Assembly (NCBI GenBank): GCA_902782505.1
Contig: CACZNO010000106.1
Coordinates: 1-11,730 of the forward strand
Direction: 5' to 3'
Length of the DNA: 11,730 nt
From: an uncultured Erysipelotrichaceae bacterium
GTDB taxonomy: Bacteria; Bacillota_I; Bacilli_A; Erysipelotrichales; Erysipelotrichaceae
The notes below the pieces were generated by a model, which was not told the origin of the DNA, did not search any database, and saw only the letters and a program-made list of their open reading frames with translations. Shown here piece by piece: positions 2,269 through 6,125 of the stretch (position 1 is the first letter of the stretch; each line of letters begins with the position of its first letter). A program made the translations under genes and the position numbers.

Positions 2269-2297
2269 ATCTTAGAAAAGGGAAGATGTTCTGTCAA
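2269..2297 (-). promoter_or_regulatory. Sigma-A-type promoter for proC
   Basis: On the reverse strand a perfect TTGACA (-35, 2292-2297) is separated by 17 bases from TAAGAT (-10, 2269-2274). It lies 22 bases upstream of the proC start codon. The -35 box faces the divergent ROK promoter, whose -10 box begins 27 bases away. Confidence 0.8.
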
Positions 2298-2320
2298 GAA
2301 AACCGGAGAGAGGGAAAAGT

Positions 2321-2350
2321 GTGTATAATAGAAATAACAGGATTATACAC
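2321..2350 (+). promoter_or_regulatory. Inverted-repeat operator over the -10 box of the ROK kinase gene
   Basis: GTGTATAAT (2321-2329) and ATTATACAC (2342-2350) are exact reverse complements of 9 bases, with 12 bases between them, so the arm centres are 21 bp (two helical turns) apart. The left arm contains a consensus -10 box, TATAAT (2324-2329); no good -35 box is seen 17 bases upstream. The right arm ends one base before the GGAGG ribosome binding site at 2351-2355. Transcription should start near 2336, so the left arm would not be in the mRNA. That favours a DNA operator for a dimeric repressor over an RNA hairpin. The regulator is not encoded nearby. Confidence 0.65.
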
Positions 2351-2360
2351 GGAGGTTCAT

Positions 2361-3254
2361 ATGAAATACGCAATTGGAATCGACATCGGGGGAACCAATA
2401 CCCGTGTCGCGTTAGTGAATGAAAATCATGAAGTTATCGAGCGCCAACAGTTCCGCACCGACGCGGATCACCCGGCGAATACCGTCGCGGCGATCAAGGA
2501 AGTCACGGATTCGTTTGACGTGGAAATCGTCGGAATGGGCGTCAGCTGTCCCGGACCGCTCGATCTGATCAACGGCATTGTGCTGGATACCCCGAATCTG
2601 CACGGGGAATGGCATGGCTTCCCGATCGCGGAAGAACTCACCAAGGCGACCGGTCATAAAACGTACTTACAGAACGACGCGAATCTCGCGGCGCTGGCGG
2701 AAGCCGTCGTAGGGGAAGGAAAGGATTATCGCTTTGTCCAGTTTTTGACGGTATCGACCGGCGTCGGCGCAGGATTTACGATCGATAAGAAGATCTACAT
2801 CGGCGCACATGGGTTTGCGCAGGAAATCGCGTGGATGTGCCTTTGGAAAAACGGTCCGCACCACGGCGAGATTTATCCGGGCGGAATCGAAGGCATCGCA
2901 AGCGGCACCGCGATCACGACCCGTGCGAAAGCCGCGGGACTGGATGTCGGGCATGCGGGACATGTGAACGATCTGGCGTTACAAGGCAATTTATCGGCGA
3001 TGCAGATCATGGATGACGCGAAGGAATACTTAGCCAACGGAATCGCCGCGATCATTGAAGTTCTGGATCCGGATATCATCATCCTGGGCGGCAGCGTTTC
3101 CCTCAAGACCGAAGGCTTTGTGGAAGAAGTCGAAGAACGCGTCAGGACGAAAGTATTCCCGTGTGTACGTCCGTACGTGAAAATCCGCCGGAGCACTCTC
3201 GGGGAAGACAGCGGTCTTCTCGGGGCGGCCTGCCTGGCTTTCGAAAACGCATAA
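2361..3254 (+). CDS. ROK-family sugar kinase (glucokinase-like), without the zinc motif
   Basis: The 297-residue protein starts at ATG 2361, 5 bases after GGAGG. The open frame reaches further upstream, but that part would contain the promoter. The ATP phosphate-binding motif GIDIGGTNTR is at residues 6-15, the catalytic Asp106 lies in QNDANLAA, and the second glycine-rich stretch STGVGAGFTI is at 132-141. The sugar-contacting glutamates fit Glu155 and Glu177. Most ROK kinases have a zinc site made of the His of an ExGH motif and a CxCGxxGCxE cluster. Here Trp158 takes the place of the His and residues 164-177 contain no cysteine. Zinc-free ROK kinases exist, so this is a subfamily feature rather than proof of inactivity. 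The substrate cannot be named; no sugar operon is adjacent. Confidence 0.88.
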   Translation: MKYAIGIDIGGTNTRVALVNENHEVIERQQFRTDADHPANTVAAIKEVTDSFDVEIVGMGVSCPGPLDLINGIVLDTPNLHGEWHGFPIAEELTKATGHKTYLQNDANLAALAEAVVGEGKDYRFVQFLTVSTGVGAGFTIDKKIYIGAHGFAQEIAWMCLWKNGPHHGEIYPGGIEGIASGTAITTRAKAAGLDVGHAGHVNDLALQGNLSAMQIMDDAKEYLANGIAAIIEVLDPDIIILGGSVSLKTEGFVEEVEERVRTKVFPCVRPYVKIRRSTLGEDSGLLGAACLAFENA

Positions 3255-3264
3255 TAATAGAAAG

Positions 3265-3295
3265 AAAAAATCTCCGGGAGTTCCGGAGATTTTTT
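3265..3295. terminator. Bidirectional terminator between ROK kinase and zinc-ribbon genes
   Basis: A perfect 13-bp stem pairs AAAAAATCTCCGG (3265-3277) with CCGGAGATTTTTT (3283-3295) around a GAGTT loop. The A-run on one side and T-run on the other make it a proper intrinsic terminator on both strands. It sits 10 bases after the ROK stop codon and 6 bases from the stop of the convergent gene. Confidence 0.93.
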
Positions 3296-3301
3296 GTTGT
3301 C

Positions 3302-4189
3302 TTAGCCGTTCATCTTGGTGCCGCATTCCGGACAGAACTTCGGAGCCGCGTTCGGATCATCCGGTTTCCATCCGCATTTCGGGCAGACGTTGGTCGGTTT
3401 CGGCGTGCCGCAGTCCACACAGAATTTTCCGCGGTTCGCACGGTGGCACTTCGGGCATTCCCAAAGTTCATCGGACGCCGGAGCCGCAGGCTGGGGCGTG
3501 CCGCATTCCATACAGAACTTGCCGGTATTCTTCGCATGGCAGTTCGGGCATTCCCAGGTGCCGTCTTCCGCAGGTTCCGTGATCGGCGCGGGGGTGAATT
3601 CCTTTCCGAGTAACGCGGCGCAGATTTCTTCCGCCAGATTGACCATCATCCGGTATTCTTCGCTGGTGTTGGAATCCGGGCGCGTGTCGCTTAACTCAAA
3701 GTCGATTTCATTGAAATACGGGGAATCCACGGAAATGTTGATGTCGAAACGGTATTCGTATTCATACTGTTTCGGATCGTAGCTGACGTTCTTGCCTTCC
3801 GCGTCCTTGTAGTAGATTTCGTCCTTGTCTTCGGTGATCTTGTAGGTCGCGTTCATGACCTGGGAAAGATCGATGACATCCGGATTGCCGTCGCGGAAAT
3901 CACGGCGTCTTGTGACTAAGAATTTCTTCAGCGCTTCGTCGATGTAGACCTTGGTGTTGTTGCCGAGAATTTTCGAAGGATGGATATTCGCCAGCATCAT
4001 CGCGTTGCGGTCACGATACGCTAAGTGTTCCTTGATGTCGGCAACGGTGGAATGTCTTCTTTCATTGAACCACGGCGATAATTTGGAAGCGCAGTCCTTG
4101 CAGAGGTTTCCGTCTTCCAGTTTGCGGTTTCCCAATAAACCGATTTTATTGCCGCAGACACTGCAATATTTCGCATCAAATAAACCCAT
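3302..4189 (-). CDS. DUF4428-type zinc-ribbon protein with three C-terminal zinc ribbons
   Basis: A 295-residue soluble protein of unknown function. The N-terminus carries a treble-clef-like pair of CxxC motifs (Cys9, Cys12, Cys30, Cys33) with the GNRKLEDG spacing that I associate with DUF4428. The middle (about 45-200) has no cysteine cluster; it is acidic and rich in Tyr and Asp, with alternating segments that look like a beta-rich domain. The C-terminus has three zinc ribbons in a row. The first two (WECPNCH...CMECGTP and WECPKCH...CVDCGTP) are near copies, and the third reads CPKCG...CPECG. The ATG start at 4187-4189 has a CCTCCC complement (GGGAGG) 7 bases upstream. It has its own promoter and ends at a shared terminator, so it is probably monocistronic. 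Such ribbons usually bind protein or nucleic acid. Confidence 0.75.
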   Translation of the reverse strand: MGLFDAKYCSVCGNKIGLLGNRKLEDGNLCKDCASKLSPWFNERRHSTVADIKEHLAYRDRNAMMLANIHPSKILGNNTKVYIDEALKKFLVTRRRDFRDGNPDVIDLSQVMNATYKITEDKDEIYYKDAEGKNVSYDPKQYEYEYRFDINISVDSPYFNEIDFELSDTRPDSNTSEEYRMMVNLAEEICAALLGKEFTPAPITEPAEDGTWECPNCHAKNTGKFCMECGTPQPAAPASDELWECPKCHRANRGKFCVDCGTPKPTNVCPKCGWKPDDPNAAPKFCPECGTKMNG

Positions 4190-4326: not shown

Positions 4327-4749
4327 CTATATCGCTTTCAGTAAATCGTAAAGCTGTGTATAGAGGAAATACGCTTTTTCTTTGTCCAGCGGAATACAGG
4401 AACCTACCGCGGCGGGAATATGCGCGCACTTTTCTTCCAGTGCAGCGCCTTTTTCCGTCAGGCGGATCTTTACGACGCGCTCGTCTTCTTCGCTGCGCGT
4501 GCGGGTCACATATCCTTCGGCCTCCAGTTTTTTGAGAAGGGGAGTCAGAGTGCCGTTATCCAGATACAGTTTTTCGCAGAGTTCCCCGACGGAAGCCTCT
4601 TTTTTATCCCACAGCACCATCATCGCGATGTATTGGGTATACGTAAGTCCAAGAGGCTTTAGATACGGCGTGTATTTGGCGGTTACCTTGCGCGCGGCCG
4701 CATACAGAGGGAAACAAAGCTGGTTTTCCAGTTTCAGGGATTCGCTCAT
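4327..4749 (-). CDS. ohrR: OhrR-type MarR-family peroxide-sensing repressor
   Basis: A 140-residue winged-helix repressor. The N-terminal LENQLCFPLY segment matches the organic-hydroperoxide sensor OhrR. The reactive cysteine is Cys12, and Tyr16 and Tyr26 sit at +4 and +14, the same spacing as the two tyrosines that hydrogen-bond the sensing Cys15 of B. subtilis OhrR. The recognition helix region LYLDNGTLTPLLKKLE (61-76) and wing TRSEEDERVVKIRLT (84-98) are also typical. Further cysteines are Cys58, Cys108 and Cys118. I chose the ATG at 4747-4749, one base after the peroxidase stop codon, which implies translational coupling; an in-frame TTG at 4767 would add six residues. It is co-transcribed with the peroxidase. 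It probably represses its own operon through the palindrome at 5318-5341; that link is inferred. Confidence 0.88.
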   Translation of the reverse strand: MSESLKLENQLCFPLYAAARKVTAKYTPYLKPLGLTYTQYIAMMVLWDKKEASVGELCEKLYLDNGTLTPLLKKLEAEGYVTRTRSEEDERVVKIRLTEKGAALEEKCAHIPAAVGSCIPLDKEKAYFLYTQLYDLLKAI

Positions 4750-4750
4750 C

Positions 4751-5293
4751 TTATAAAAGCTCTTCAACGGCTTTCGCGACCTTCTTCATATCGGCGGTCG
4801 GTTCAAAGCGCGCCGCGACGTTTCCCTGACGGTCGATCAGGAACTTCGTGAAATTCCATTTGATTTCCGGGTTGTTCTTATAGTCCTTGTCGATTTTCTT
4901 TAACATTGCGCTCATTGCCAGGGCGACCGGACCGCTTCCGAATCCTTCGAAGCCTTTCTGGCTCTTCAGATATTTGAACAGTTCGATGGCGTTTTCACCG
5001 TTGACGTCGCTCTTTTTCATGTGCGGGAACTGCGTGTTGTAGTGCAGCTGGCAGAATTCATGGATCTCCTCGTCCGTGCCCGGGGTCTGACCGGCGAACT
5101 GGTTGCAGGGAACATCGATGATTTCGAAGCCTCTGTCATGGAAGTTTTCGTACATTTCTTCCAGATCTTTATAGTGCTTGGTAAAGCCGCAGCCGGTTGC
5201 GGTATTGACGACCAGGACGACCTTGCCTTCGTAATCTTTCATGGAGACGGTTTCACCTTTCGGGGTTTGTACTGTTAAATCGTAGAAATTCAT
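4751..5293 (-). CDS. gpx: Glutathione peroxidase-family thiol peroxidase
   Basis: The 180-residue length is normal for bacterial GPx-family enzymes, which reduce H2O2 and organic hydroperoxides and in bacteria are often thioredoxin-dependent. The peroxidatic residue is Cys35 in NTATGCGFT, a cysteine rather than selenocysteine. The rest of the catalytic set is Gln69 (NQFAGQTPG) and Trp146-Asn147 (WNFTKFLID). Cys81 in the following helix is positioned to be the resolving cysteine. The ATG at 5291-5293 has a strong AGGAGGA ribosome binding site. It is the first gene of an operon with ohrR, transcribed from a TTGACA promoter covered by a palindrome. The protein should be cytoplasmic: there is no signal peptide. 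Family identity is firm; the reductant and preferred peroxide are inferred. Confidence 0.95.
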   Translation of the reverse strand: MNFYDLTVQTPKGETVSMKDYEGKVVLVVNTATGCGFTKHYKDLEEMYENFHDRGFEIIDVPCNQFAGQTPGTDEEIHEFCQLHYNTQFPHMKKSDVNGENAIELFKYLKSQKGFEGFGSGPVALAMSAMLKKIDKDYKNNPEIKWNFTKFLIDRQGNVAARFEPTADMKKVAKAVEELL

Positions 5294-5311: not shown

Positions 5312-5340
5312 TTGCTCAATTATATTTTATCAAATATAAT
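5312..5340 (+). promoter_or_regulatory. Divergent forward promoter into the 5347-5575 region
   Basis: TTGCTC (5312-5317) is followed after exactly 17 bases by a perfect TATAAT (5335-5340). Transcription would start near 5347, running away from the peroxidase gene. The spacer and -10 box are almost entirely the palindrome 5318-5341. Confidence 0.5.
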
Positions 5341-5341
5341 T
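5318..5341. promoter_or_regulatory. Perfect palindrome, probable OhrR operator
   Basis: AATTATATTT (5318-5327) and AAATATAATT (5332-5341) are exact reverse complements of 10 bases around TATC. The AT-rich palindrome resembles operators of MarR-family repressors. It lies over the -10 box and spacer of the peroxidase-ohrR promoter, and over those of the divergent promoter as well. Each arm includes a TATAAT, one per strand. Assignment to OhrR rests on position and on the regulator encoded in the same operon. Confidence 0.7.
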
Positions 5342-5351
5342 AGTTTGTCAA
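5324..5351 (-). promoter_or_regulatory. Promoter of the peroxidase-ohrR operon
   Basis: On the reverse strand a perfect TTGACA (5346-5351) is followed after 16 bases by TAAAAT (5324-5329). An alternative -10, TATAAT at 5319-5324, would need an over-long 21-base spacer. The -10 and most of the spacer are inside the palindrome, so a bound repressor would exclude RNA polymerase. Confidence 0.75.
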
Positions 5352-5355
5352 GGAA

Positions 5356-5376
5356 ATCCCCGGAAAATCCGGGGAT
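5356..5376. other. Isolated 9-bp GC-rich hairpin beside the peroxidase promoter
   Basis: ATCCCCGGA (5356-5364) and TCCGGGGAT (5368-5376) form a perfect stem with an AAA loop, ending five bases from the -35 box of the peroxidase promoter. On the forward strand it would be the 5' hairpin of the candidate RNA. On the reverse strand it is followed only by TTCC, so it would be a weak terminator. Confidence 0.6.
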
Positions 5377-5535
5377 CCGAAGATGAACGAAAGCGGGGGG
5401 TCGGGTGCTTTCGCTTCCTCGACAGAAAATAGGGCGGCAGACGCCGTGCGTATTCTGTAGGAGAATGGTTTTCGAGGATCTCTTGCAACTTCAGTATAAC
5501 ATGCGGAGCACCGCGACCTAAAGGAGAATGCACGA

Positions 5536-5571
5536 AAAAACGCTGAAAACTCTTTATTTTTCAGCGTTTTT
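5536..5571. terminator. Bidirectional intrinsic terminator
   Basis: AAAAACGCTGAAAA (5536-5549) pairs perfectly over 14 bases with TTTTCAGCGTTTTT (5558-5571), with an 8-base loop. On the reverse strand it is followed by further T and ends the membrane-protein gene, 17 bases after its stop codon. On the forward strand it would end the candidate small RNA. Confidence 0.9.
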
Positions 5572-5588
5572 GCGCATTTTGGAACGAT

Positions 5589-6125
5589 TTATTTCGCCAG
5601 CATCAGCTTGAGATGGTAGAACGCGAAGACCGTACATCCGGCCATGATGACCGCGTGGAACACAATGACGATCGTGTCGTAATGATTCAATAAACTGTAC
5701 ACGAACATTACTACGCCGAGCGCGAAAGTCAAAAGACTTTTGGCGATCGTCATAACCTTGTCTCTTTTGACAATGTCCTTGTAGGAAGTCCATCCTTCGG
5801 TCTTGGCCTTGTTGACAGGCATGCCTTTACAGAACAGATAGAACCAGATTTCCAGGGCCAGCCAGGTGACAACACCGATGATGACCGGAATGAATCCCGC
5901 ATATCCTTTCTGATCGACCAGGAAAATCAAAGACACGGTATAAATCAGTAGGAAATAGAGATACCGGGTCTGTAACAGGGTGAACTGCCCGTAATCCGGA
6001 CGCTGGACCGTGCGCATTTCCGGTAACAGTGGATGCTTATACACAACACGTCCTTTGGCGGACGCCTGTTCGGAGAGAACTCCGATGCCGTAGACTTCAG
6101 GAAGTTTGGATTTTTTCGTGCTCAT
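5589..6125 (-). CDS. Four-helix integral membrane protein, function unknown
   Basis: I do not recognise this 178-residue protein. A basic, hydrophilic N-terminus of about 54 residues is followed by four predicted membrane segments at about 55-70, 77-99, 127-146 and 151-171. A charged loop (100-126) lies between the second and third, and the C-terminus is short. There are no cofactor or catalytic motifs. The start is the ATG at 6123-6125 (MSTKKSKLPE), with GAAGG 8 bases upstream. The open frame runs 59 residues further, but that part would include the promoter. It is probably monocistronic, divergent from the zinc-ribbon membrane protein gene with 148 bases between start codons, which hints at shared use in the membrane but proves nothing. 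Confidence 0.8.
   Translation of the reverse strand: MSTKKSKLPEVYGIGVLSEQASAKGRVVYKHPLLPEMRTVQRPDYGQFTLLQTRYLYFLLIYTVSLIFLVDQKGYAGFIPVIIGVVTWLALEIWFYLFCKGMPVNKAKTEGWTSYKDIVKRDKVMTIAKSLLTFALGVVMFVYSLLNHYDTIVIVFHAVIMAGCTVFAFYHLKLMLAK

Follow-up and report, generated by a model that had tools for sequence, protein, structure and literature searches.

The gap between a membrane-protein-like gene and a glutathione peroxidase gene (gpx) in the draft genome of an uncultured Erysipelotrichaceae bacterium may well hold a gene for a small RNA (sRNA) of ~135 nt, encoded on the minus strand and carrying a C-rich loop that would pair with G-rich ribosome-binding sites. We favour this explanation, drawn from comparison of sequences, but hold it tentatively. 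An earlier note on this DNA had proposed a structured small RNA in the same gap. A core conserved in two species speaks for such an RNA, but not for the strand, the boundaries or the domain structure that were proposed; the candidate RNA gene is probably real, but lies on the opposite strand and begins and ends elsewhere.

The gpx locus and the candidate RNA

The source genome (G000) is a 1.46 Mb draft in 270 contigs, and the window, that is the whole stretch of 11,730 nt analysed here, is its contig 106. On the minus strand the order across the window is membrane-protein-like gene, gap, gpx and OhrR-like regulator gene. The features are as follows, where P1–P3 are the helices of the proposed RNA and R1 is a model of P2.

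5589..6125, minus strand: membrane-protein-like gene, with no Pfam or NCBIfam match
5534..5572, either strand: terminator hairpin of bidirectional appearance, at the membrane-protein gene's 3′ end (from the sequence and the folds of both strands)
5493..5501, minus strand: extended −10 element TGTTATACT of the proposed RNA, with a −35 that is weak by eye (G001 counterpart TGTTATTAT, locus L035, 2246–2238)
5352..5487, minus strand: proposed sRNA, its putative start ~7 nt past the −10 and its putative end at the P3 tail
5472..5478, minus strand: P1 5′ arm TCCTCGA, pairing with 5416–5422
5416..5422, minus strand: P1 3′ arm TCGAGGA, forming seven Watson–Crick pairs and adjoining P2
5387..5414, minus strand: P2 hairpin GCGAAAGC - ACCCGACCCCCC - GCTTTCGT with a C-rich loop (14-base word in common with G001; R1 score 43.7 bits)
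5356..5376, minus strand: P3 hairpin, intrinsic-terminator-like (T-run weak in G000, GGGGGTTTTTAT in G001)
5324..5351, minus strand: gpx promoter TTGACA-16-TAAAAT with the AATTATATTTTATCAAATATAA palindrome (consensus promoter scan)
4751..5293, minus strand: gpx, glutathione-peroxidase family (PF00255, E 7.8e-37)
4327..4767, minus strand: MarR-family OhrR-like regulator (top NCBIfam match NF052638 OhrR, 155.7 bits, under the cut-off of 200)

The gpx promoter (5351–5324) matches the consensus at 11 of 12 positions in the promoter scan, and its palindrome is a probable OhrR operator, since the OhrR-like gene is adjacent. Both are retained upstream of gpx in G001 (TTGACT-16-TAAAAT and the same palindrome). 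The earlier note had placed the RNA under the palindrome of the peroxide-response operon; the palindrome, however, belongs to the gpx promoter, which follows the minus-strand RNA downstream, and shared OhrR control of the RNA is therefore not indicated. Two other proposals held: the 14-pair terminator hairpin lies within 5534–5572 and is part of the minimum free energy (MFE) fold, and the gap has no credible protein gene as far as tested, its 61-aa minus-strand open reading frame (5348–5533) matching neither Pfam nor NCBIfam.

The gpx protein is 76–84% identical to those of the best 80 of at least 581 confirmed GPx-encoding stretches; among the titles of these 80, 40 are Lachnospiraceae and 15 further ones Pseudobutyrivibrio or Butyrivibrio, many from rumen samples. 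At E 1e-20 a gpx relative is found in 26 of 60 genomes, our own included. Such identity in other bacteria, with relatives in 26 of the 60 genomes, suggests that gpx has been transferred horizontally. The membrane-protein gene has relatives of 22–27% identity in eight other genomes of the family. Elsewhere in the window (3247–3322) a T-run hairpin, with a below-threshold BSnc120 match (20.4 bits versus 114), lies between converging reading frames (2286–3254, plus; 3302–4189, minus) and is probably a shared terminator.

Conservation in a syntenic relative

Besides G000, the 272 family genomes searched include a single member of the genus, G001. Its gap is syntenic, with the same neighbours (gpx 83% identical, membrane protein 53–54% identical). 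When aligned, the two gaps have little sequence in common beyond the palindrome-bearing gpx promoter region, a C/G hairpin and the word CGAAAGCGGGGGGT. The longest shared word has 14 bases, whereas 2000 shuffled pairs gave at most 13 (mean 7.3).

The order of parts on the minus strand is common to both genomes: the hairpin of the upstream gene, the extended −10, P1, P2, a short linker, P3 and, abutting P3, the gpx promoter. By eye, the upstream-gene hairpin of G001 is a different one from that at 5534–5572. The extended −10 precedes the P1 5′ arm by 14 nt in G000 and 17 nt in G001, the variable loop between the P1 arms is 49 and 40 nt long, respectively, and a single base separates the P1 3′ arm from P2. 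The P2 loop is ACCCGACCCCCC in G000 and AACATAACCCCCC in G001, with ACCCCCC predicted to be unpaired in both. As for P1, TCCTCGA/TCGAGGA in G000 corresponds to TACTTCC/GGAAGTA in G001, so that four of the seven pairs are changed on both sides with pairing kept.

We compared these motifs with shuffled sequences. A Watson–Crick helix like P1 arose in 2.25% (G000) and 1.85% (G001) of 2000 dinucleotide shuffles, and an extended −10 (TGN plus at least five of six TATAAT matches, 8–25 nt ahead of P1) in 0.6% and 1.7% of single-base shuffles, respectively. These percentages flatter the motifs, because the motifs were picked after both sequences had been viewed. When G-U pairs were allowed, a helix of the size of P1 appeared in 19.1% (G000) and 16.4% (G001) of 2000 dinucleotide shuffles, and P1 is for this reason a suggestive rather than a proven helix. 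The minus-strand MFE fold of G001 contains P2 and P3 and not P1, and two sequences cannot prove the RNA structure of P1–P3.

It is conceivable, though rather unlikely, that the gap holds no RNA gene, and that the core acts at the level of DNA (as a protein-binding site or as part of a bidirectional terminator), its helices having arisen by chance. That only two genomes carry the core, that P1 is its weaker part and that it consists of a short G-run/C-run set within an inverted repeat would all suit such an element. It would not explain why the order and similar spacing of the parts, the promoter element included, are conserved, why P1 changes on both sides, or why the G-U pairs (see below) suit one strand.

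The main rival keeps the transcript on the minus strand and reads it as a long leader, starting at a second, upstream promoter of gpx–ohrR, in which P3 would be a conditional terminator and P1/P2 a sensor deciding read-through. As in riboswitch and attenuator leaders, a promoter, a structured region and a terminator-like hairpin lie upstream of the operon on the same strand, and they do so in both species; the weak P3 tail of G000 would leak; and by eye the G001 loop AACCCCC could pair over 7 bp with GGGGGUU of P3 as an antiterminator. The same pairing in G000, however, extends over 4–5 bp only (by eye), P3 of G001 looks like a plain strong terminator, and no Rfam family, known riboswitch classes included, is matched at threshold. 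Unlike in such leaders, the operon also has a well-formed promoter of its own beyond P3, conserved in G001, which this explanation would have to account for. We consider such a leader improbable. A bolder version, in which a recently born, genus-restricted attenuator or sensor ahead of gpx–ohrR would add an RNA switch (C-run loop and terminator G-run) to control by OhrR, is more doubtful still.

The minus-strand sRNA remains our preferred reading because of the synteny, the 14-base word, the two-sided changes in P1, the spacing of the −10, the G-U pairs possible on the minus strand only and the T-run of G001. Against it count the number of sequences (two), the post hoc choice of motifs, the weak T-run after P3 in G000 and the −35, which looks weak in both genomes.

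Strand of the proposed transcript

The earlier note had drawn the RNA on the plus strand, divergent from gpx. The folding energy does not choose between the strands, since both beat their shuffles and hairpins fold either way: the z-score of the gap region was −4.78 on the plus and −5.47 on the minus strand, with none of 200 shuffles equalling it on either strand, and that of the proposed 120-nt domain alone, on the plus strand, was −3.14 (0 of 200).

The strands differ in P2. In each genome one P2 pair (a one-pair extension of the hairpin in G000, an inner pair in G001) can form as G-U when read on the minus strand, but is an A·C mismatch on the plus strand. Consensus folding of the two sequences, in an alignment hand-fitted to P1–P3, gave −27.8 kcal/mol on the minus versus −24.7 kcal/mol on the plus strand (structure conservation index, SCI, 0.66 versus 0.54). 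In G001, TTTTTAT comes directly after P3 on the minus strand, and the plus strand offers nothing comparable; in G000 the T-run is broken, and P3 is missing from the list of the consensus terminator scan of the window.

Several helices of the plus-strand drawing exist and find a place in the minus-strand model. Its 9-bp hairpin (5356–5364/5368–5376, AAA loop) is there and is the same as P3. The nested 7-bp arm TCCTCGA/TCGAGGA is present in the sequence and in the minus-strand MFE fold, but not in that of the plus strand. The 120-nt domain's closing helix of 11 bp (5399–5409/5507–5518, with a bulge) occurs in the plus-strand MFE fold, but is missing in G001, where the longest run is 5 bp and the corresponding 3′ stretch is A+T-rich. 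The alternative hairpin (5388–5394/5407–5413) is present as the core of P2, which is conserved better than any other part of the candidate RNA; the switch between two forms that was built on it is not upheld, because one form is lost in G001 together with the closing helix.

The plus-strand promoter fared similarly. TTGCTC (5312–5317), a 17-bp spacer and TATAAT (5335–5340) are all there, but the consensus scan does not list them, as TTGCTC matches the −35 consensus at 3 of 6 positions and the scan requires 4; over the same DNA it lists the minus-strand TTGACA-16-TAAAAT. By eye the plus-strand hexamers score 9 of 12 both in G000 and in G001 (TTAACC-17-TATAAA). Their sequence is at the same time that of the conserved gpx operator, and this can explain why it has been kept. 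A plus-strand sRNA starting here would have its low folding energy and the terminator hairpin at 5534–5572 in its favour; with the closing helix absent from G001, an A·C mismatch in P2 of each genome, the unlisted promoter and the weaker consensus energy, we regard it as very unlikely.

Distribution, known RNAs and possible targets

To search for relatives we built R1 (39 positions) from the G000 and G001 sequences themselves; for the family and the order, stricter Infernal filters were used, with which some weak matches are lost. At E 0.01, R1 found G000 and G001 only (2 of the 315 genomes of the order), and the P2 pattern likewise occurred in 2 of the 272 family genomes. At E 0.1, 3 of the 272 were matched; the additional hit (G248, 24.6 bits, E 0.016) follows closely on a reading frame and by eye resembles a terminator hairpin, and we judged it a chance match. 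Among the best 80 of the at least 581 gpx loci, R1 gave one match (L086, 19.1 bits, E 0.12), also taken as chance. The 14-base core, with up to two mismatches, was found in the G000 and G001 loci among 145 searched, plus L115 and L118 (two mismatches each), which we take as chance. At 15 of the 28 gpx loci outside G000 and G001 no such element was seen by eye upstream of gpx, the remaining 13 being covered by the core search only.

At the DNA level, a similarity search of 60 genomes (our own included) returned our own genome only, besides 28 bases of G024 that match the terminator hairpin within the query. Plasmids and phages gave no DNA match at E 0.01, and viral contigs no match to the core pattern. 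In the eight family genomes with remote membrane-gene relatives, tblastn found no gpx within ~1.5 kb on either side. As the R1, gpx-locus and membrane-gene-locus searches add no credible relative, the RNA and its place beside gpx look restricted to the genus, as far as these searches reach.

Known RNA families gave no match either. In agreement with the earlier note, which could assign the RNA to no family, no Rfam family approached its gathering score, whether the whole window, the gap by itself or the G001 gap was scanned; for the gap alone the lowest E-values (0.053 and 0.056) belonged to microRNA families placed on the terminator hairpin. RsaE is among the Rfam families, and no match to it was listed in the scans of the window, the gap and the G001 gap, up to the E-values used. 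We tested 6S RNA (RF00013) because of the general shape of the plus-strand fold, which resembles it in size class and in a long closed helix with internal loops. The genome's single RF00013 match (E up to 1) lies elsewhere (G000:C130:1411–1594; 35.2 bits, E 9.6e-6, below the cut-off of 46.4), and 6S RNA was rejected for the gap.

We propose that an sRNA gene runs from ~5487 down to 5352, between the membrane-gene terminator and the gpx promoter. RNA polymerase would start ~7 nt past the extended −10 and stop at P3, and P1 and P2 would present the C-rich loop, which, by analogy with RsaE and RNAIII, could pair with G-rich Shine–Dalgarno regions of target mRNAs and block their translation. GGGGGG 3–9 nt before ATG, as a crude pattern, is not enriched in G000 (4 sites versus 3 for the reversed pattern) and weakly enriched in G001 (8 versus 2). 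By eye, none of the reading frames that follow these 12 sites is common to both genomes, and three are shorter than 10 aa. In G000, GGGGGG stands a few bases before two frames (L152 and L154) that we take to be xanthine phosphoribosyltransferase-like and DNA ligase LigA-like, and which a C-rich RNA might target.

A review (PMC3053349) describes C-rich motifs, placed in hairpin loops or in single strands that are accessible, as a signature of mRNA ribosome-binding-site recognition by several Staphylococcus aureus sRNAs and RNAIII. When the C-rich motifs of S. epidermidis RsaE were changed to A's, the effect on PIA and eDNA was undetectable, according to PMC6435200, which also treats such loop motifs as a signature of ribosome-binding-site recognition. 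Like RsaE/RoxS, RNAIII and other C-rich sRNAs, our candidate is short, its end resembles a terminator, and its C-run sits in the loop of a hairpin. Unlike RsaE/RoxS and RNAIII, it has no Rfam match, one model match per genome, a C-run of six and different neighbours. It is thus a candidate for a lineage-specific RNA of a known kind, the sRNAs with C-rich motifs.

If transcribed as proposed, this would be a young, lineage-specific sRNA gene beside a peroxidase–regulator cassette. It would also show how a strong fold on one strand can merely mirror a conserved RNA of the opposite strand, and that one syntenic relative may suffice to bring this to light.
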